Source: Ardenticatena maritima
GTDB taxonomy: Bacteria; Chloroflexota; Anaerolineae; Ardenticatenales; Ardenticatenaceae
DNA: 64,000 nt
Direction of reading: 5' to 3'
Assembly: GCF_001306175.1 (NCBI RefSeq)
Contig: NZ_LGKN01000009.1
Span: 248,001-312,000 of the forward strand
The position numbers were made by a program, and so were the translations under genes. Numbering within the stretch: the stretch's first letter is position 1; every line of letters begins with the position of its first letter. Positions 49,083 to 57,310 of the stretch are shown here, piece after piece. The notes below the pieces were generated by a model. It was not told the DNA's origin, searched no databases, and worked only from the letters and a program-made list of their open reading frames with translations.

Positions 49083-49892
49083 TTATGGTTCATACACGAA
49101 AATGTCAACCAACTCGCCCTGCGGTGTGCGCAGGTAGGCAACATCGCCGCTATTGTTCCAAATGGGATCGCGGCTGCCCCAATAGAGTGCGCCATTCTGC
49201 ATTGCGCCTTGCCCTGAATAAATCCGCACATGGTCGCCGGGGGCAAGTGTGTAAGCGGGCAAAATATATTCATTGTTGCTCTCGTCCGAGAGCCGAAATC
49301 CTTGCAGGTTGATGGGCTGCGAACCATTGTTTTCGAGTTCGACCCATTCGCCATTCACGTTTTGGTTGTCATTGCCGGGCGCATCGGCGTTCAGGTCCAC
49401 AATGCGCACCGTGATATGCTCATCACTCGGCTGCCAGAGTCCGCGCCGATACTCGCGCGCCTCCTGTTCGGCGGCGCGCAATTCGGCTTCATACGCCACA
49501 TTGGGCGGCACCGTGTAAACCTGGGCAAACCCTTGCCGCACAATTTCGAGGTTGACGAACGTCCCATCGGCGAGGAAAAGGTAGGCCAGGCGTCGCCCGT
49601 ACTGGTCGAACGCATCTACATCGTTTTCCAGGCGTACCGGCTCATGCAAAACCAACGACGCCACAAAATCGCGCGCCTCTTCATAAAAAGGCTGCCCACG
49701 TTCAGGCGTGTTGATACCAATCAAGCGCACGGTTTCTTCTGTATCGAGCACGACGGTATCGCCATCAATCACCTTGGAGACGCGCGGCCAATCGGCTGTA
49801 TCGGTATCGGTGCTGGGCGTTGCCGCACATGCAACGCCCAACACGCCCCACAGCATCACGAACACCAAACGAATGAGCATGTGCCGCTTCAT
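49083..49892 (-). CDS. Lipoprotein with a staphylococcal-nuclease domain and a lamin-tail domain
   Basis: A lipoprotein signal (WGVLGVAC then AATP) is followed by an SNase-type domain (VIDGDTVVLD, RLIGINTPERGQ, FDQYGRRLAYLF) with the expected Arg and Glu catalytic residues. Residues 165-269 form an immunoglobulin-like lamin-tail domain (NGEWVELENNGSQPINLQGFRLSD). Such surface nucleases can degrade external DNA or RNA. The gene overlaps the CysRS-like gene by 4 bases. The association with an aromatic-synthesis operon is probably positional only. Confidence 0.82.
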   Translation of the reverse strand: MKRHMLIRLVFVMLWGVLGVACAATPSTDTDTADWPRVSKVIDGDTVVLDTEETVRLIGINTPERGQPFYEEARDFVASLVLHEPVRLENDVDAFDQYGRRLAYLFLADGTFVNLEIVRQGFAQVYTVPPNVAYEAELRAAEQEAREYRRGLWQPSDEHITVRIVDLNADAPGNDNQNVNGEWVELENNGSQPINLQGFRLSDESNNEYILPAYTLAPGDHVRIYSGQGAMQNGALYWGSRDPIWNNSGDVAYLRTPQGELVDIFVYEP

Positions 49893-51085
49893 GCGAGCCG
49901 CAACCCTAACACACCCGCCATGCGATGCAAGGCTTCTTGCGCCAGGCGCACATCGCGCCCATGGTGCGCCGCTTCGCGAATGGCGCGCCCCACTTCGAGC
50001 ATGGTTTCCACCGCCACGGGGGTGTTGAGGTCGTCGTCAAGGGCGGCGGTGAAGCGTTGTTCATCATCGGATACGTCCAGCGGTTCGCCCGACCCTGAGG
50101 GCGCGTGGGCGGCTTCGGTGAGCATATTCGCCCACGCCTGGGCTTCTTCCTGCTCGGCGCGGTTCCACTCCCAGGCTTCGCGGTAGTGGTGGCGAATCAG
50201 GTTGAGGCGAATCGCGTCGGGCGAGAAGCCTTCTTCCAGCAAATTGCGCACCAACACGAGGTTGCCCAGCGACTTGGACATCTTCTCGCCATCTTTGCGC
50301 ACCATGGCAATGTGCATCCAATAGCGCACGAAGGGGCGTTGCCCCGTAAATTTTTCGCTCTGGGCAATCTCACATTCATGATGGGGGAAGAGCAAATCAG
50401 CGCCGCCCCCGTGAATGTCAATCGTCGCGCCCAAAAACTTCATGCTCATGGCTGAACATTCAATGTGCCAGCCAGGGCGTCCAGGTCCCCAGGGGCTATC
50501 CCACGTCGGTTCGCCCGGCTGTGCCGCCTGCCAGAGCACAAAATCGAGCGGGTCGTCTTTGTTGGGGTCGTTGGGGTTGTTGCCCCGCTCATTGGCAATC
50601 GCCAGCATCTCGTCGTAATCGAGGCGGCTCAATTTACCAAATTCGGGGTCGGCATGCACGCGGAAGTAAACATTGCCGTTGCGCTCGTAGGCAAAGCCAC
50701 GCCGCAACAAATCTTCCACAATGCGAATAATTTCGGGAATGGTTTCGGTGGCTTTGGGGTAAAAATCAGGCATGCGCACATTCAAATCGTGCAAATCGCG
50801 CAGAAAGGCTTCGGTGTGTATGCGCCCCAGTTCATCCCACGCCATTCCCACTTCGGCGGCTTTGCGCAAAATGTCGTCGTCAATGTCGGTGACGTTTTGG
50901 GTATAGCGCACGGTGTAGCCTTTGGCTTCCAGGTGGCGAATCAGCACGTCGAACGAAATGTAGGTGAAGGCGTGTCCGAGGTGGGTTGTGTCATACGGTG
51001 TCACGCCACACACGTAGAGCGTGACGGTTTTGCCAAACACGTGAAATGGTTCTTTGCGCTGCGTCATTGAGTTGTAGAGTTTCAT
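49889..51085 (-). CDS. MshC-like cysteinyl-tRNA synthetase paralogue
   Basis: A 398-residue class I synthetase with the Cys-activating site: [40 protein letters not shown] and KMSKS ([11 protein letters not shown]). It stops after the DALR-like helix (VLGLRLA) and lacks the C-terminal tail present in the other CysRS here (475 residues). The TPYDTTHLGHAFTY opening and IRLNLIRHHYREAWEW resemble MshC, the ligase that joins Cys to GlcN-inositol. It may charge tRNA-Cys, make a thiol, or do another Cys ligation. The start has an in-frame ATG choice; I use 51085 near the HIGH domain. Confidence 0.75.
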   Translation of the reverse strand: MKLYNSMTQRKEPFHVFGKTVTLYVCGVTPYDTTHLGHAFTYISFDVLIRHLEAKGYTVRYTQNVTDIDDDILRKAAEVGMAWDELGRIHTEAFLRDLHDLNVRMPDFYPKATETIPEIIRIVEDLLRRGFAYERNGNVYFRVHADPEFGKLSRLDYDEMLAIANERGNNPNDPNKDDPLDFVLWQAAQPGEPTWDSPWGPGRPGWHIECSAMSMKFLGATIDIHGGGADLLFPHHECEIAQSEKFTGQRPFVRYWMHIAMVRKDGEKMSKSLGNLVLVRNLLEEGFSPDAIRLNLIRHHYREAWEWNRAEQEEAQAWANMLTEAAHAPSGSGEPLDVSDDEQRFTAALDDDLNTPVAVETMLEVGRAIREAAHHGRDVRLAQEALHRMAGVLGLRLA

Positions 51086-51178
51086 GGCTGCTTCCTCATA
51101 TCGCCTTGTTTTTTTGTATCGCCAACATCTGTATCGTACCAAGTCATGCAATTTTGGCGAATATGAGCAGCATGAAAC

Positions 51179-52039
51179 TCAGCCGTTCGCGAGCGTCGCC
51201 TCCAACGCTGACCGCATCACATCCAGCGGTGCGGCTTGCCCCGTCCACAACTCGAACGCCGCTGCCCCCTGGTGCAAGAGCATGCCCACGCCGTCAATGG
51301 TGCGCGCCCCGACTTCAGCGGCAAGCCGCAACAGACGGGTTTGGCGGGGCACATACACCAAATCATTGACCGTCAGGTGGGGCAACAAGCGCACACCGTC
51401 GGGGAGCGGTACGGCGTTGGTGTGGGGGTGCATGCCAACGCTGGTGGCGTTCACCAACAACGTTGCTGCTTCCAGGGCGGTTTGCACCGCCTCACGTTCA
51501 AATGGCAGAACACGCGACACACCGCGCCCCACGGCTTGCATCGTTTCTGCCAGCGCCTCCGCACGCGCCTGTGTGCGGTTCGTCAACCAGACCGTGGCGC
51601 CCGCCTGCAACAAGGCGTACACCACCGCCCGCGCCGCGCCGCCTGCTCCCACCACCAGCGCACATTGCCCCGTCGGGTCAACGCCCGCTTCGCGCAAGGC
51701 GCGCAAGAAGCCCGTGGCGTCGGTGTTTTCACCAATCAAGCGCCCGTCTCGGTTGATGATGGTATTGACCGCGCCGACGGTGTGGGCGGTGGGCGTCATC
51801 TCGTCCAAAAAGGGCACCACGGCTTGCTTGTGCGGTACGGTGATATTGCATCCGGCGAAGCGCAGCGCGCGAATGCCCCGCACAGCGTCGCCCACATCGT
51901 CGGGGGCGACGGGCAGAAGCAGGTAGTGCCAATTGAGCCCCAAGGCGCGAAAGGCGGCGTTGTGCATGGCGGGCGAGCGGCTATGCGCCACAGGCCACCC
52001 CATCAAACCGACGTAGGTGGGAAGCGCGTGCTCGTTCAT
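51179..52039 (-). CDS. aroE: Shikimate dehydrogenase
   Basis: AroE reduces 3-dehydroshikimate with NADPH. The 286-residue protein has the shikimate site GWPVAHSRSPAMHN and GCNITVPHK (catalytic Lys), the Asp of GENTDATGF, and a Rossmann motif VVGAGGAARAV followed by LTNRTQARAE. Its start overlaps the aroA stop by 4 bases. There are 93 bases between its stop and the CysRS-like gene, where a weak promoter could exist. Confidence 0.94.
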   Translation of the reverse strand: MNEHALPTYVGLMGWPVAHSRSPAMHNAAFRALGLNWHYLLLPVAPDDVGDAVRGIRALRFAGCNITVPHKQAVVPFLDEMTPTAHTVGAVNTIINRDGRLIGENTDATGFLRALREAGVDPTGQCALVVGAGGAARAVVYALLQAGATVWLTNRTQARAEALAETMQAVGRGVSRVLPFEREAVQTALEAATLLVNATSVGMHPHTNAVPLPDGVRLLPHLTVNDLVYVPRQTRLLRLAAEVGARTIDGVGMLLHQGAAAFELWTGQAAPLDVMRSALEATLANG

Positions 52040-53379
52040 GCCTGCGTCTCTTCCACTTCGCCCAGCAGGGTTTCGACAAAGCGGGGGAAACTGTCCGCCA
52101 TCACATCAGCACCCTGCAACGTGGTTGGACCATCGGCGATGAGTGCCGCCACGGTGAGCGCCATCGCCAGACGGTGGTCGCCGTGGCTTTCGACGGTTGC
52201 GCCCCGCAATGGGGTGGGACCACGCACCACAAACCCATCGTCCAGCGGTTCAATGTCCGCGCCCATCTTGCGCAGTTCCCGCGCGACGTTGCCAATGCGG
52301 TCGGTCTCTTTGACGCGCAGTTCGGCGGCATCGCGCACGATGGTTTCGCCTTCCGCCTGGGTGGCGGCTACCGCAATGATGGGGAATTCATCAATGGCGC
52401 GCACCACAAGGTCGCCGGCAATGGTGGTGCCGTGCAACGGCTGGTGATGAACAATCAGGTCGGCGGTCGGTTCAATGGCGTCTTCGCGCACGTTGTCAAG
52501 CGCCCAGGTGGCGCCCATACGTTGCAAAATATCGAGAATGCCCGTGCGTGTCGGGTTGATCCCCACGTCAACGAGCCGAAGCGTGCTGTTTGGGACGAGG
52601 AGCGCCGCCACGATGAGAAAAGCGGCGGATGAAATATCGGCGGGGACCACAAACGCGCCACCATCGGGAGCCGTGAGGGGACGCAGCGGCGCTTGCGGCG
52701 CCTGGACACGCACGGTGTTCGCTTCAAGCGTCAGCGGTGCGCCCATGGCGTGTAACATGCGCTCGGTGTGGTCGCGCGCCGGACCGGGCTGGGTAATGAC
52801 GGTCTCCCCCTCGGCGTACAACCCCGCCAGCATGAGCGCACTCTTCACCTGGGCGCTGGCGATGGGCATCTCGTAGGTGATGGCGCGTAAAGGCGCGCCA
52901 CGAATCGCCAGCGGCGCAAGGTTGCCGCCGTCGCGCCCATCAATTGCCGCCCCCATACGGCGCAGAGGGTCGGCAACGCGCCGCATGGGACGTCGGCGCA
53001 AGGCGTCGCGCCCTGTGAGCACGCTGAAAAAGGATTGCCCCGCCAGCAATCCGCACAACAGGCGCATTGTTGTGCCCGAACCGTCGCAATCGAGCACGTT
53101 TTCAGGTTCACGCAAGCCGTGCAGCCCCACGCCATGCACACGCACGCGCGTGGGGGTGGCGGGGTCGTGTTCGATAGGCACCCCCAACGCGCGCATCACA
53201 TGCAGGGTGGCGTAGCAGTCCGCAGCCGGCAACCAGCCCACCACGTCGGATGTTCCTTCGGCCAGCGCCCCCAGGATGAGCGCGCGGTGGGAGATGGATT
53301 TATCGCCAGGAACGCGGCGCGTCCCTGTGAGCGGGTGTGTGAGTGGGTGAATCGTCAAGTTCTGCATGGTTTTGTGCAT
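52036..53379 (-). CDS. aroA: 3-phosphoshikimate 1-carboxyvinyltransferase (EPSP synthase)
   Basis: AroA joins shikimate-3-P and PEP. The visible motifs are VPGDKSISHRALI, SGTTMRLLCGLLAGQ, ADISSAAFLIVAAL, RVKETDRIGN and ESHGDHRLAMAL. In the PEP loop the usual GNSGTT reads DGSGTT, so Asn is replaced by Gly. The length is 447 residues. I use the ATG at 53379, 11 bases after tyrA; a second ATG four codons in is equally possible since the ribosome site is close to the first. It overlaps aroE by 4 bases. Confidence 0.92.
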   Translation of the reverse strand: MHKTMQNLTIHPLTHPLTGTRRVPGDKSISHRALILGALAEGTSDVVGWLPAADCYATLHVMRALGVPIEHDPATPTRVRVHGVGLHGLREPENVLDCDGSGTTMRLLCGLLAGQSFFSVLTGRDALRRRPMRRVADPLRRMGAAIDGRDGGNLAPLAIRGAPLRAITYEMPIASAQVKSALMLAGLYAEGETVITQPGPARDHTERMLHAMGAPLTLEANTVRVQAPQAPLRPLTAPDGGAFVVPADISSAAFLIVAALLVPNSTLRLVDVGINPTRTGILDILQRMGATWALDNVREDAIEPTADLIVHHQPLHGTTIAGDLVVRAIDEFPIIAVAATQAEGETIVRDAAELRVKETDRIGNVARELRKMGADIEPLDDGFVVRGPTPLRGATVESHGDHRLAMALTVAALIADGPTTLQGADVMADSFPRFVETLLGEVEETQA

Positions 53380-53390
53380 CTCTTCCTGGT

Positions 53391-54257
53391 TCAAGGGTGT
53401 TGGTTTTCCGCCCATGCACGGCGCAAAGCGGCGAGCGCTTCCAAACGGGCGCGTAAGGCGGCTTCGTCTTCCACCGCCAGCAAGGCGCTCAGCGTGCGCA
53501 ATGCGTGCATGGCGTTTTCGATGGCGTTCAACACCGCCTCGCGGTTCGTCAGCAGAATGTCGAGCATCATGGTGCTGTTGCTTGCCGCCAGGCGGCTGGT
53601 ATCGCGAAAGCCCGATGAAGCCAATTGGGCGGGAGCGGTGTCTTCCGTTTCGAGGGCGGCGGCGACAAGCGCCACACTCATCAAATAGGGGAGATGGCTG
53701 ACCAACGCCACAGCGGTATCGTGTTGGGCGGCGTCGAGCCAAAGGGGGCGCGCGCCCAGTGCGCGGGCAATGGTTTCTGCGGTGGCGCGGGCGACAGCAT
53801 CCGTGCGGTCGGTGGCACAGAGGGCAAAGGGGGCGTTTTCAAACAATGCGGCTTCGGCGTGGCGCAAGCCGGCGACTTCTTTGCCACACATGGGGTGCCC
53901 CCCCACCGCCCGCACATGCCGCGGCAAGGTGTTCATCCGCGCGACAATATCACGCTTGGTACTGCCCAAATCAAGCACGAGCGTACCGGGGCGCAGGCAC
54001 GGCGCAATCTCATCCAGCAACTGCAAAATAGCCCGCACGGGCGCCGCCAGCACCACAACGTCGGCATCGCGTACCGCATCGTGTGGGTCGCTGGCGGCCT
54101 GTTCAATCACGCCGTCCGTCACCGCGCGCACCATGACGTCGCGCTGGGGGTCGTATCCGATAATGAACGACGCCAACCCAGCACGACGGGCGGCCAATGC
54201 AAATGAGCCGCCCATCAAGCCAAGTCCCAAAATGGCCAGTTGCGTGATCGGTGTCAT
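53391..54257 (-). CDS. tyrA: Prephenate dehydrogenase
   Basis: A 288-residue TyrA. The N-terminal NAD-binding domain has LGLGLMGGSFALAAR, then DLGSTKRDIVARM and GGHPMCGKEVAG. The helical C-terminal half has the substrate helix with SHLPYLMSVAL and SSGFRDTSRLAAS. It converts prephenate to 4-hydroxyphenylpyruvate, or arogenate to tyrosine. No ACT domain is seen, so feedback, if any, must come from elsewhere, for example the upstream attenuator. It lies between aroF (60 bases) and aroA (11 bases). Confidence 0.92.
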   Translation of the reverse strand: MTPITQLAILGLGLMGGSFALAARRAGLASFIIGYDPQRDVMVRAVTDGVIEQAASDPHDAVRDADVVVLAAPVRAILQLLDEIAPCLRPGTLVLDLGSTKRDIVARMNTLPRHVRAVGGHPMCGKEVAGLRHAEAALFENAPFALCATDRTDAVARATAETIARALGARPLWLDAAQHDTAVALVSHLPYLMSVALVAAALETEDTAPAQLASSGFRDTSRLAASNSTMMLDILLTNREAVLNAIENAMHALRTLSALLAVEDEAALRARLEALAALRRAWAENQHP

Positions 54258-54317: not shown

Positions 54318-55367
54318 TCACGCCGCAATGTGCGCCGCTTCATCCCGCGAACGCAACAGCCGCCGCCCGATGGCGTGGGTAATCCGTTCCACGTCGTCCA
54401 TCAGGCGCGCAAAGTTCTCAGGGGTGAGCGACTGCCCACCATCAGACCAGGCGTGTGCGGGGTCGGGGTGAACTTCGATAATCAACCCATCTGCCCCAGT
54501 CGCCACCGCCCCGCGGGCGACAGGCGTGACGTACTGCCATTTGCCCACACCGTGGCTGGGGTCGGCAATGACGGGCAAGTGGGTGAGTTCTTTCAACACG
54601 GCAATGGCATTCAGGTCGAACGTGTTACGGGTCATTTTTTCGTAGGTGCGAATGCCACGCTCGCAAAGCATCACCTGGTAGTTGCCCTCGCTGAGAATGT
54701 ACTCCGCTGCGAGCAACCACTCTTCGATAGTAGCGCTCAACCCGCGTTTGAGCAACACGGGCTTGTTGGTGCGCCCCACGGCTTTCAGCAAGGGGTAGTT
54801 CTGCATGTTGCGTGCGCCAATCTGCAAGATATCGGCATACTCGCACACGAGGTCAAGGTCTTCGACACCCATCACCTCGGTAATAATCGGCAAACCGGTT
54901 TCCTCACGGGCTTCGGCAAGGTATTTCAGCCCCTCTTCGCCCAACCCCTGGAAACTGTACGGCGACGTGCGCGGCTTGAATGCGCCCCCACGCAACACCG
55001 TTGCACCAGCCGCTTTGACGGCATGCGCCGTCTCCAAAATTTGTTCGCGTGATTCAACCGAGCAGGGTCCAGCCATGACGACGACGGCATCGCCGCCAAT
55101 TTTCACGCCATTGACGTCAATAATGGTGTTTTTTTGTTGGAAATCACGGCTGGCGAGTTTGTAGGGGCGCAAAACACGCATGGCTTCCTCCACTCCTGGT
55201 AAAGCCGTCCATTGTTGCGGGTCGAGATGGCGTTCATCGCCGATAACGCCAATGATGGTGCGCTCTTCACCGCGCGAAATGTGGGCACGCATGCCTTGTT
55301 CTTCAATAAGGTTGAGCACTTCACCGATTTCAGCGGCGGTTGCATGGGCTTTCATGACGATAATCAT
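54318..55367 (-). CDS. aroF: 3-deoxy-7-phosphoheptulonate synthase (DAHP synthase, type I beta)
   Basis: This is the first committed step of the aromatic pathway, joining PEP and erythrose-4-P. The 349-residue protein carries an N-terminal ferredoxin-like regulatory domain of about 90 residues ([18 protein letters not shown]) and a barrel with [25 protein letters not shown] and [11 protein letters not shown]. The domain order is like that of the Thermotoga enzyme, where the N-terminal domain binds Tyr/Phe. The start follows AAGGAGG. The ATG overlaps the stop of the aroH fusion by 4 bases. Confidence 0.94.
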
Positions 55368-56734
55368 ACAGTTCCTCCTTTTTTGGTTGATGTGGTTGAA
55401 AACGTCTGTTGCATTGAGAGTGTTTTTGCGTACTGCAAACAGCCATCCAGCACCGTTGGGACCGCCTCTACGGTGCATGGCGTCAGTCCATACTCCGCCA
55501 GTGTCTGTTCGAGGCTCTGCCCGACCAGTGGGTGCAAGTCCAGCGCCTCACCACTCACAAACACCGGCAATGCCTCGCGCACGTCCAGACGCTGCACACC
55601 ACGCCAAAGTTGGCGGGCGATGTGCGCCCCCATGCGCTGCAACAGGGTTTGCGCTGTCGCATCGCCTTCTTCCGCCGCCGCCCGCACCATCGGCGCCAAA
55701 GCCGCCAATTCATCGGGCGTGTGGGATTGCGTGAGCCAATCAGCGAATGCGTGGCGGTCATCAATTCGCAGGGCGGCGCACAGGTGATTGGCAAGTGGGC
55801 TTGGCGTATCGGTGTACAAAGCATCGAGGGCGGCATCGCAGGCGTGGCGCACCAATGAGGGGAGCAGGTCAGGCCAATCAGCGGATGGGGGGAGAGACAG
55901 CGGGATGTCGTGTCCCGAAAGCCAGGCGTGCGCATCAAGTGCGAAGTCGGCCAGCGCGACAAGGGCATGGGGCGGCGCTCCGAGCGCTTGATGGCGGGCG
56001 GCGGGTCGTGTGAGCAGCGCGAGCCGCGGCGCTTGCCACCCGTAGCGGTCGCCCAACATGGTGAGCAGGAGATCGCTCGGCGGCTGTTCCAGCGCCAACA
56101 CCACGGCGCTCACCAATGAGGGATGAATGGGGCGGGGGCGGGCTTCCATGAGTGTGGCATCAATCGCATCGAACAGCCGCGACGCGACCAAGTCGCCCTG
56201 CGCCATCCAGAGAGATTGCGAGGAACGGTGTCGGCTCAAGACCGTGCCTTGTTCGTCCTCCAGGCGGCACGTATAGCCCAAACGGTGGGCGTCGAAGACC
56301 AGCCGCAAGGGCCCCAACGGAGCAGGCTCCAGGGCGTCATCGGGCAGCGGCGGCAACGGCACAGTCGCTTCAATGGCGCGGTCGGGGCGCAGGTGGCGGG
56401 CGTCGCGCAGGTAAATGTGGCGGATTTCATGCTGTTTGCGGGTTGTGTTCCACTGGATGAGAACGCGGATACACTTGGGAACAGCGCCCGGCACGTCCAT
56501 TTCATGCGTGCAAAGCAGCGCCGCATCGTGCCAGCCCATCTGGCGCAAGGCAAGCGCCGGGAATGTGGCGTTCAAATCGCGCGTGGTGCTCAAAATCACA
56601 CACGCCACATCTTCTTGCCGAATGCCATTTGCCAGAATCATTCGCTGCAACAACTCGCGTGTTGCTTCGAGAATGGCCTCTTTGGTATTGGCAGAAGCGG
56701 TTGTCGCGCCGCGCACCCCTCGACAGACTTTCAT
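55364..56734 (-). CDS. aroH: AroH-type chorismate mutase fused to a BadF/GlcNAc-kinase-like domain
   Basis: Residues 1-120 are AroH-type chorismate mutase: [57 protein letters not shown]. Residues 125-456 form a second domain that resembles the C-terminal half of BadF/N-acetylglucosamine-kinase proteins ([21 protein letters not shown], then PVFVSGEAL, and a final DGCLQYA). The clear ATPase phosphate loop of the family is not visible, so the domain may bind ligand without kinase action. AroH proteins are normally 120-130 residues. It is the first gene of the aro operon and lies directly behind the attenuator. The start has AGAGGAG upstream. Confidence 0.75.
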
Positions 56735-56763
56735 GGCTTTGCTCCTCTGGTGATTGGGCAAAC

Positions 56764-56794
56764 AAAAAAGCGTGGAGCCGGCTGCTCCACGCTT
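56764..56794 (-). terminator. Attenuator terminator upstream of aroH
   Basis: Minus strand AAGCGTGGAGC and GCTCCACGCTT make an 11-bp stem with a 5-base loop and end in six T residues. It lies 30 bases before the aroH start and 21 bases after the leader peptide stop, so transcripts must read through it to reach the operon. Confidence 0.9.
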
Positions 56795-56861
56795 GTGATC
56801 CCGATGTGAAGGGGTCAGGTCAGAGAATGCGGCGCGTCGCAGCCGGGCGCTTTCCAGCGCC
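56778..56861 (-). promoter_or_regulatory. Mutually exclusive hairpin segments of the aro attenuator
   Basis: Segment 1 GGCGCT (56861-56856) lies inside the Trp codons and pairs with segment 2 AGCGCC (56851-56846). Segment 2 continues into CCGGCTGC (56846-56839), which is complementary over 8 bases to GCAGCCGG (56785-56778) in the terminator arm and loop. So 1:2 leaves the terminator free, and 2:3 prevents it. The logic is that of a ribosome-paused attenuator. Confidence 0.72.
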
Positions 56862-56982
56862 AGCCAAAATAAAAGTAAAAGTACGCGCCGCCGAACACAC
56901 CATCATACCCAGCCATTGGGCTGTGCATCGTGCGAGATGTTTGGTTGGTGATGATGGCGTGGTTCCACATAAAGCCTGACAC
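56815..56982 (-). CDS. Aromatic leader peptide of the aro operon
   Basis: A short open frame runs from GTG at 56982 (55 residues) or ATG at 56970 (51 residues) to a stop at 56815. Codons 30-39 counted from the ATG (56883-56854) read [10 protein letters not shown]. The GTG has AAGGA 8 bases upstream; the ATG has only AGG. It sits between a good promoter and the attenuator terminator. This density of all three aromatic residues just before a hairpin switch is the hallmark of a leader peptide, whose translation reports charged tRNA-Tyr, tRNA-Phe and tRNA-Trp. The peptide itself probably has no other role. Confidence 0.82.
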
Positions 56983-57008
56983 TCACGTTTTCCTTCGCAG
57001 GTGTGCGT

Positions 57009-57037
57009 ACTATACCAAAGCCATGCAGCAAAGTCAA
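57009..57037 (-). promoter_or_regulatory. Promoter P2 of the aro leader and operon
   Basis: Minus strand TTGACT and TATAGT with a 17-base spacer. The transcription start should be near 57002, giving a leader of about 270 bases up to aroH. Confidence 0.8.
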
Positions 57038-57083
57038 TAGCGGAAAAAACGAATTCGCCCAAATGGGTAAGCGCCAGACACCC

Positions 57084-57109
57084 AAAAGCCCCCGCCGGAG
57101 CGAGGGCTT
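57084..57109 (-). terminator. Terminator T1 of the upstream leader unit
   Basis: Minus strand AAGCCCTCGC and GCGGGGGCTT form a stem with one U-G pair and a TCCG loop, followed by TTTT. It lies 28 bases after the 17-residue ORF stop and 47 bases before the P2 -35. Confidence 0.75.
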
Positions 57110-57118
57110 CGGTTGGGC

Positions 57119-57259
57119 GGCATCACCGTTGGCGGCCTAGCGGCTCACCTCCGGTGATGCCCACGTGCACCGACAAGAACTATAATCCATGGGCATCACC
57201 TCCTTTTCTAAAAGATAGCAAGCGGTACGAGATGAATCGGAATAATACGGAAGTGATGC
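57119..57259 (-). promoter_or_regulatory. Complementary segments around the 17-residue ORF
   Basis: Four segments share one sequence and its complement. GCATCACTTCC (57259-57249) pairs with GGAGGTGATGC (57203-57193), the Shine-Dalgarno sequence. GGTGATGCCCA (57200-57190) pairs over 11 bases with TGGGCATCACC (57163-57153) inside the ORF. That segment can pair instead with CGGTGATGCC (57128-57119). So the ribosome site can be hidden or exposed by alternative folds. Confidence 0.65.
57137..57190 (-). CDS. 17-residue leader-type peptide with optimal ribosome site
   Basis: The ORF encodes MDYSSCRCTWASPEVSR. Its ribosome site AAAAGGAGGTGAT matches the end of 16S rRNA over ten or more bases, 4 bases before the ATG. 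It lies between promoter P1 and terminator T1, so it looks like a translated leader rather than chance. It has two Cys, one Trp and one Tyr in 17 residues, so the sensed amino acid, if any, is less clear than for the aro leader. It could also be a small functional peptide. Confidence 0.6.
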   Translation of the reverse strand: MDYSSCRCTWASPEVSR

Positions 57260-57280
57260 GTACCGGTGCACGGTGCAGGC

Positions 57281-57310
57281 ATTATGGCACACATGCAGGG
57301 CAATTGTCAA
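57281..57310 (-). promoter_or_regulatory. Promoter P1 upstream of the 17-residue ORF
   Basis: Minus strand consensus TTGACA and CATAAT with an 18-base spacer; the transcription start should be near 57274. Confidence 0.75.

Follow-up and report, generated by a model that had tools for sequence, protein, structure and literature searches.

The aro operon of Ardenticatena maritima is preceded by what, with a probability of about 0.9 from sequence comparison and folding models, is a ribosome-mediated transcription attenuator of the common aromatic pathway. The mechanism is classical ribosome-mediated attenuation, with an intrinsic terminator and a predicted, mutually exclusive antiterminator just downstream of the control codons of a leader peptide. 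This reading is carried by the sequence elements in the window (the whole 64,000-nucleotide stretch of DNA that was analysed), by their conservation across the class Anaerolineae, by the match between antiterminator and terminator, and by the energetics of the stalled states. Genome comparison further indicates that aromatic leaders of this type are a real and widespread family, present in about 100 related genomes, for which the open literature searched apparently holds no description and Rfam no entry.

The leader in the window is assembled from well-defined elements (Table 1). The promoter hexamers match the consensus at 10 of 12 positions and are accompanied by an extended -10 TG; this promoter had been proposed in the original prediction, and its hexamers are kept at the same positions in G001, G003, G004 and G005, where they read TTGAC(T/A)-17-TA(T/C)(A/C)(G/A)T. 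The leader peptide starts at an ATG that has an AGG ahead of it and aligns with the start found in relatives, while a GTG at 56982 offers an alternative start. Codons 30-39 comprise six Tyr/Phe and two Trp codons and read as had been claimed, and when the window's own 400 nt ahead of the conserved aroH motif were dinucleotide-shuffled 3000 times, no shuffle reached the density of this run (seven aromatics in eight codons). The GGCGCT/AGCGCC pair (56861-56856 and 56851-56846), the 11-bp terminator with its six T residues and the classical order of the attenuator elements, all part of the same prediction, were likewise located. The terminator hairpin is calculated at -19.5 kcal/mol, the 251-nt leader as a whole folds with a z-score of -5.6 relative to dinucleotide shuffles, and the chorismate mutase gene begins about 30 nt beyond the terminator. 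A strong extra hairpin, CCATCATCACC ... GGTATGATGG (56931-56897, minus strand), lies within the 5′ half of the leader ORF and has a counterpart in G001. It could act as a pause hairpin, giving the ribosome time to draw level with the polymerase.

Table 1. Positions of the leader elements and of the operon genes in the window
Feature	Position	Strand	Details
Promoter	57009-57037	minus	-35 TTGACT 57037-57032, 17-nt spacer, -10 TATAGT 57014-57009
Leader peptide ORF	56815-56970	minus	ATG 56970 to TGA 56815, 51 codons
Control codons 30-39	56854-56883	minus	TAC TTT TAC TTT TAT TTT GGC TGG CGC TGG
Segment 1:2 structure	56829-56891	minus	GCGGCGCG 56891-56884 with CGCGCCGC 56836-56829, enclosing GGCGCT/AGCGCC hairpin
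Antiterminator 5′ strand (segment 2)	56832-56846	minus	CCGGCTGC-GA-CGCGC
Antiterminator 3′ strand (segment 3)	56778-56792	minus	GCGTG-GA-GCAGCCGG, in terminator 5′ arm and loop
Intrinsic terminator	56764-56794	minus	AAGCGTGGAGC-AGCCG-GCTCCACGCTT, 11 bp, six-T run 56769-56764
Chorismate mutase type I (first gene, aroH)	55364-56734	minus	PF07736, 5e-45; residues 5-118, plus fused C-terminal region
DAHP synthase, aroF type	54318-55367	minus	PF00793 and PF18152; start inferred from sequence, overlaps end of chorismate mutase gene
Prephenate dehydrogenase, tyrA	53391-54257	minus	PF02153, PF20463
EPSP synthase, aroA	52036-53400 (start approximate)	minus	PF00275
Shikimate dehydrogenase, aroE	51179-52039	minus	PF08501, PF18317

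The operon content that had been read from the sequence, chorismate mutase, DAHP synthase, TyrA, AroA and AroE, was confirmed for all five genes by Pfam. The C-terminal fusion of the chorismate mutase, about 340 residues long (55364-56380, minus strand), has no Pfam match. Long frames at the chorismate mutase gene are also found in G001, G003 and G004 and in family f22 (G026, G061, G088, G111, G130, G148), and the chorismate mutase of most Anaerolineae members is a short protein. The gene following aroE on the same strand (49889-51151, minus) resembles cysteinyl-tRNA synthetase, as judged by eye from its translation. Another DAHP synthase gene of this type is found elsewhere in four genomes, at G000:C4:164467, G001:C37:47600, G500:C1:941928 and G493:C1:3403183. 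In family searches, a convincing aromatic run was sought before pheA and before the second aroF and none was found; the aroF of G009, a genome without aroH, has no leader.

The alternative pairing that competes with the terminator had been foreseen as CCGGCTGC/GCAGCCGG. This 8-bp pair is present (56846-56839 with 56785-56778) but was incomplete, its extension CGCGC (56836-56832) with GCGTG (56792-56788) having been missed. As the whole antiterminator the 8-bp pair was rejected, since most of it falls in the terminator loop and little of the stem would be disrupted by it; this difficulty is removed by the extension, which carries the antiterminator into the terminator stem, and the complete pairing occupies most of the terminator 5′ arm. 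In the core alignment of five species (A2), the antiterminator pairs at 13 of 13 positions in every sequence. One C-G pair is replaced by U-A in a double change between genera, at a position in the terminator loop that the terminator does not need, which speaks for the alternative pairing. The original prediction also lacked GCGGCGCG, the segment directly ahead of the aromatic run; the segment 1:2 structure in which it takes part keeps 95.7% of its pair cells in the five species, and two of its pairs are changed on both sides. These compensatory and pair-conservation counts, drawn from five sequences only, are suggestive. Across the class, segment 1:2 pairing is no better than in shuffles (median z -0.6, with 22% of leaders within the best 5%), so that this structure is seen only in the window and its closest relatives.

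On this arrangement, the steps from transcription and translation through stalling to a response under amino-acid shortage can be pictured as follows. RNA polymerase would initiate at about 57002, with a trailing ribosome translating the leader peptide. With Tyr-tRNA and Phe-tRNA charged, and probably Trp-tRNA too, the ribosome would pass codons 30-39 and reach the stop codon, where it would cover segment 2, allowing the terminator to form and transcription to end. When aromatic aminoacyl-tRNA is scarce, the ribosome would stall on the run and mask segment 1, leaving segment 2 available for pairing with segment 3 while the terminator 3′ arm has yet to be synthesised. The antiterminator formed in this way would let the polymerase enter the chorismate mutase-aroF-tyrA-aroA-aroE operon.

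Stalling was simulated by scanning the A site codon by codon, with an assumed fixed downstream footprint of 15 nt, and in these models a stall on the control codons is predicted to favour readthrough and passage to favour termination. In the window, the terminator class is favoured by about 10 kcal/mol without a ribosome; when a ribosome occupies codon 34 (Tyr), the antiterminator class is favoured by about 5.6 kcal/mol. The calculated probability of the terminator is 0.03, 0, 0 and 0.08 for stalls at codons 33-36 (Phe, Tyr, Phe, Gly), 0.46 on Trp37, 1.0 on Trp39 and about 1 for codons past the run. The class-wide mean of this probability is lowest for the sixth run codon, where it is 0.67, compared with 0.86-0.88 well upstream and 0.99 beyond. 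Folding of the nascent transcript, in which the terminator 3′ arm is not yet made, gave results expressed as fractions of leaders, not means: for stalls on run codons 4-7, 98% of leaders form the antiterminator, and about 0% do so when the ribosome is at least 14 codons past the run. With the ribosome far upstream the antiterminator forms in about 60% of leaders, so that untranslated transcripts may read through. Equilibrium folding of the leaders of the sister genus (G003-G005) and of G001 favours the terminator at nearly every stall position, and switching there therefore has to be kinetic; the trp attenuator mechanism is itself generally held to be kinetic.

Within the order, chorismate mutase is present in six of seven genomes, and the leader was found in all five other Ardenticatenaceae that have aroH (G001, G002, G003, G004 and G005). 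The leaders read GAFPFYYYFFFAWCPPAPGCDAPSPEGLT in G005, GAFSFYYYFYFAWRSRAPGCAAPSLEGLT in G003 and GAPYYFFYFAWCLPAPGCDAPYLEGLT in G004, the terminator is almost invariant in five Ardenticatenaceae sequences, and the leader start and the peptide C-terminus W..APGCDAP align across the relatives. The leader of G002 is divergent (GAYYYAWSLSVETRLG), with its own diverged run, terminator and antiterminator. Conservation of the run and of the base-pairs, which had been put forward as a check, thus extends over the run, terminator and antiterminator of five family relatives and about 100 genomes of the class.

Chorismate mutase was detected in 268 of 396 Anaerolineae genomes, which provided 106 usable regions upstream of aroH. 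An ORF with an aromatic run, defined as at least five aromatics in eight codons in frame, is present in 100 of these regions, compared with 4 of the 106 opposite strands and 24 of 530 shuffles. Position by position the run is composed of approximately 20-65% Phe and 16-57% Tyr, and no more than about five codons beyond the run the composition is back at background level. Under a run cut-off looser than that used for the 106 regions, 104 leaders were collected, 102 of which are followed by an intrinsic terminator. The leader stop codon lies at a median of 24 codons after the start of the run and 26 nt before the terminator, and the antiterminator 5′ strand begins at a median of 36 nt after the run start. 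Pairing of the post-run segment with the terminator 5′ arm and loop is stronger than in shuffles (median z -2.3, with 62% within the best 5%). Because terminator arms have a GCGTGG motif in common, each leader was also compared with the other distinct terminator arms, 81 in all. The post-run segment prefers its own arm with a median rank of 0.075, against 0.465 for a control upstream region; once duplicate arms are removed the median is 0.1, with related genomes still not independent. Outside the Anaerolineae, a run before aroH (for example FYTYFFYFT or FFSSYFYYF) was found in 11 genomes, which belong to families f71 (seven), f81 (three) and f110 (one). G411 may carry one as well, and the run is absent in some 21 other genomes of the phylum examined.

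Three explanations that do without codon reading can be weighed against this survey. A nascent-chain arrest peptide of the TnaC or SecM type, stalled in the exit tunnel by a free aromatic amino acid and not by uncharged tRNA, would fit the length of the peptide (51 codons) and the conserved C-terminal W...APGCDAP after the run within Ardenticatenaceae. It is nevertheless very unlikely: the order of F and Y varies freely over about 100 leaders and the flanking residues are unconserved, a pattern that codon reading would produce but a specific arrest sequence would not, and the conserved GCDAP codons overlap segment 2, so that their conservation is explained by RNA pairing. Still less credence is given to control of the terminator by a metabolite riboswitch, a T-box or a protein-bound leader with the ORF incidental. 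T-boxes do occur in the lineage, before trpE, but the leader has no Rfam match, and it is the coding run that is conserved class-wide, not the RNA sequence. In this search the window held no match at the gathering score of any Rfam family, and at E<=10 the interval 56500-57300 gave no meaningful match; the T-box (RF00230) and the Rfam amino-acid leader families (Trp leader, Leu_leader) gave no match at the aro leader, and the best leader score, 17.5 bits for Leu_leader against a gathering score of 50, fell on an element upstream and not on the aro leader. Chance, meaning that a spurious ORF happens to precede a constitutive terminator or an mRNA processing site, might be suggested by the abundance of terminator-like sites (1.3 expected in shuffles of a 911-nt region, both strands). 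It can be practically dismissed in view of the strand difference among the 106 regions, the 3000 shuffles of the window leader that never reached the run, and the match of each antiterminator to its own terminator; the class-wide survey refutes it.

Codon reading being preferred, the question is which amino acids are read. The original prediction held that one peptide reads Tyr, Phe and Trp; this is firm for Tyr and Phe and only plausible for Trp. Of 102 leaders, 41 have a Trp codon within the 18 codons surrounding the run, in some of them before the run, and the position of this codon varies by family, being fixed inside the run in some (FWFGYYFG, FWFYGYFA) and ahead of it in others. Tyr and Phe are thus taken as the primary signals and Trp as a lineage-dependent addition. 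It is possible, at somewhat less than even odds, that the leader senses Tyr and Phe only, with Trp37 and Trp39 incidental or structural (part of the GGCTGGCGCTGG hairpin arm) and Trp sensed by the trpE T-box. The composition of the control segment class-wide (about 40% Tyr and Phe, 2.5% Trp), the intact terminator on a Trp39 stall, the borderline equilibrium value on Trp37 and the T-box leader of Ardenticatenaceae trpE all agree with this. Against it, each of the six Ardenticatenaceae leaders, from three genera, has a Trp codon after the run despite changing neighbour codons; Trp occupies set places inside the run elsewhere; stalls on Trp37 and Trp39 both keep the antiterminator formed in nascent transcripts; and the operon supplies all three aromatic amino acids. 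In the nascent transcripts of Ardenticatenaceae the first post-run Trp codon falls within the permissive stall zone in every case. The second Trp codon of the window leader (codon 39) perhaps stands too near the antiterminator to contribute. A tentative alternative, for which a probability a little below one half seems appropriate, is that the single leader peptide works as an OR gate, answering to any of the three aromatic amino acids, a trait ancestral in a large part of the Chloroflexota (Anaerolineae and f71/f81), with Trp codons gained and lost inside a stall window fixed by the RNA structure and the terminal trp branch left to the T-box.

Matches to the T-box (RF00230) are found before trpE in Ardenticatenaceae (L173, L174, L175, L176), with 77-91 bits, slightly below the curated Rfam gathering score of 93 bits, and E values of 1e-15 to 1e-19; the match before trpE of G110 is above the cut-off. 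Trp-rich ORFs (NEWGW...) before trpE were considered as a Trp leader and rejected, as they overlap the T-box. Like the aro leader, the trpE T-box responds to the charging state of tRNA and acts on a terminator in aromatic biosynthesis; unlike it, it binds tRNA directly without a leader peptide and sits before trpE, not aroH. One lineage thus appears to sense tRNA charging in two different ways, through a ribosome-read leader on the common pathway and through a T-box on the trp branch.

In E. coli, the pheA (pheL), pheST and trp (trpL) leaders control their genes by ribosome-mediated attenuation through segments 1-4, each reading mainly one amino acid. The general mechanism is identical to that proposed for the aro leader, but the E. 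coli systems control a terminal branch or a synthetase and not the common pathway. The Rfam Trp leader family RF00513 (named in PMC4046766) is without a match at the Ardenticatena aro leader, and a survey of Actinobacteria reported that no conserved RNA elements precede the Phe and Tyr operons (PMC1262725). The nearest precedent is aroR of Corynebacterium glutamicum, a Phe-Tyr-Phe leader before aroF for which ribosome stalling and a response to Phe limitation have been reported (Neshat et al. 2014; PMC11802643, PMC4046766), and which is likewise a mixed aromatic leader before a DAHP synthase operon. As described there, aroR is actinobacterial, has three aromatic codons with no Trp in the reported run, and has aroF as its first gene, whereas the Anaerolineae leaders mostly hold 5-7 aromatics in eight codons and precede chorismate mutase, the Ardenticatenaceae adding Trp. 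The likeness is one of function alone, the leaders being too short and divergent to bear on common descent. An upstream ORF of the motif uORFC-13-1 (24 representatives) precedes aroF, the DAHP synthase gene, in Acholeplasma and similarly combines at least one Phe codon with a terminator (Brewer et al. 2021, PMC8632094); it is confined to Acholeplasma, and the accessible part of that report describes no antiterminator.

The suggestion that a combined aromatic leader is new to Chloroflexota accordingly holds in part: none was found for Chloroflexi or Chloroflexota in the titles, abstracts and passages of the open literature covered, an earlier mention in older surveys in subscription journals being possible, but aroR is an existing mixed Phe/Tyr precedent. 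The leaders described here add to a phylum with little on record a large attenuator family ahead of chorismate mutase-DAHP synthase genes, spanning about 100 species. As their Phe, Tyr and sometimes Trp codons stand at positions fixed relative to the RNA switch, they offer natural variants for testing how signals from several amino acids are integrated.

A second short transcription unit lies just upstream of the leader (57310-57085, minus strand) and consists of a promoter TTGACA-18-CATAAT, a 17-codon ORF and then a terminator. Ahead of the ORF stands GCTATC...AAGGAGGTGATGCCCATGG, which is almost fully complementary to the 3′ end of 16S rRNA, and GGTGATGCCC pairs with GGGCATCACC. The stem that sequesters the SD is kept in nine of nine aligned sequences (A3), with no covariation, and the peptide is poorly conserved. 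Relatives of the unit occur in at least nine Anaerolineae genomes; those beyond the genus sit at other loci with no consistent neighbour, and for this reason the element at 57240-57085 was rejected as a tandem aro leader. The unit is possibly an undescribed small RNA or mini-mRNA.
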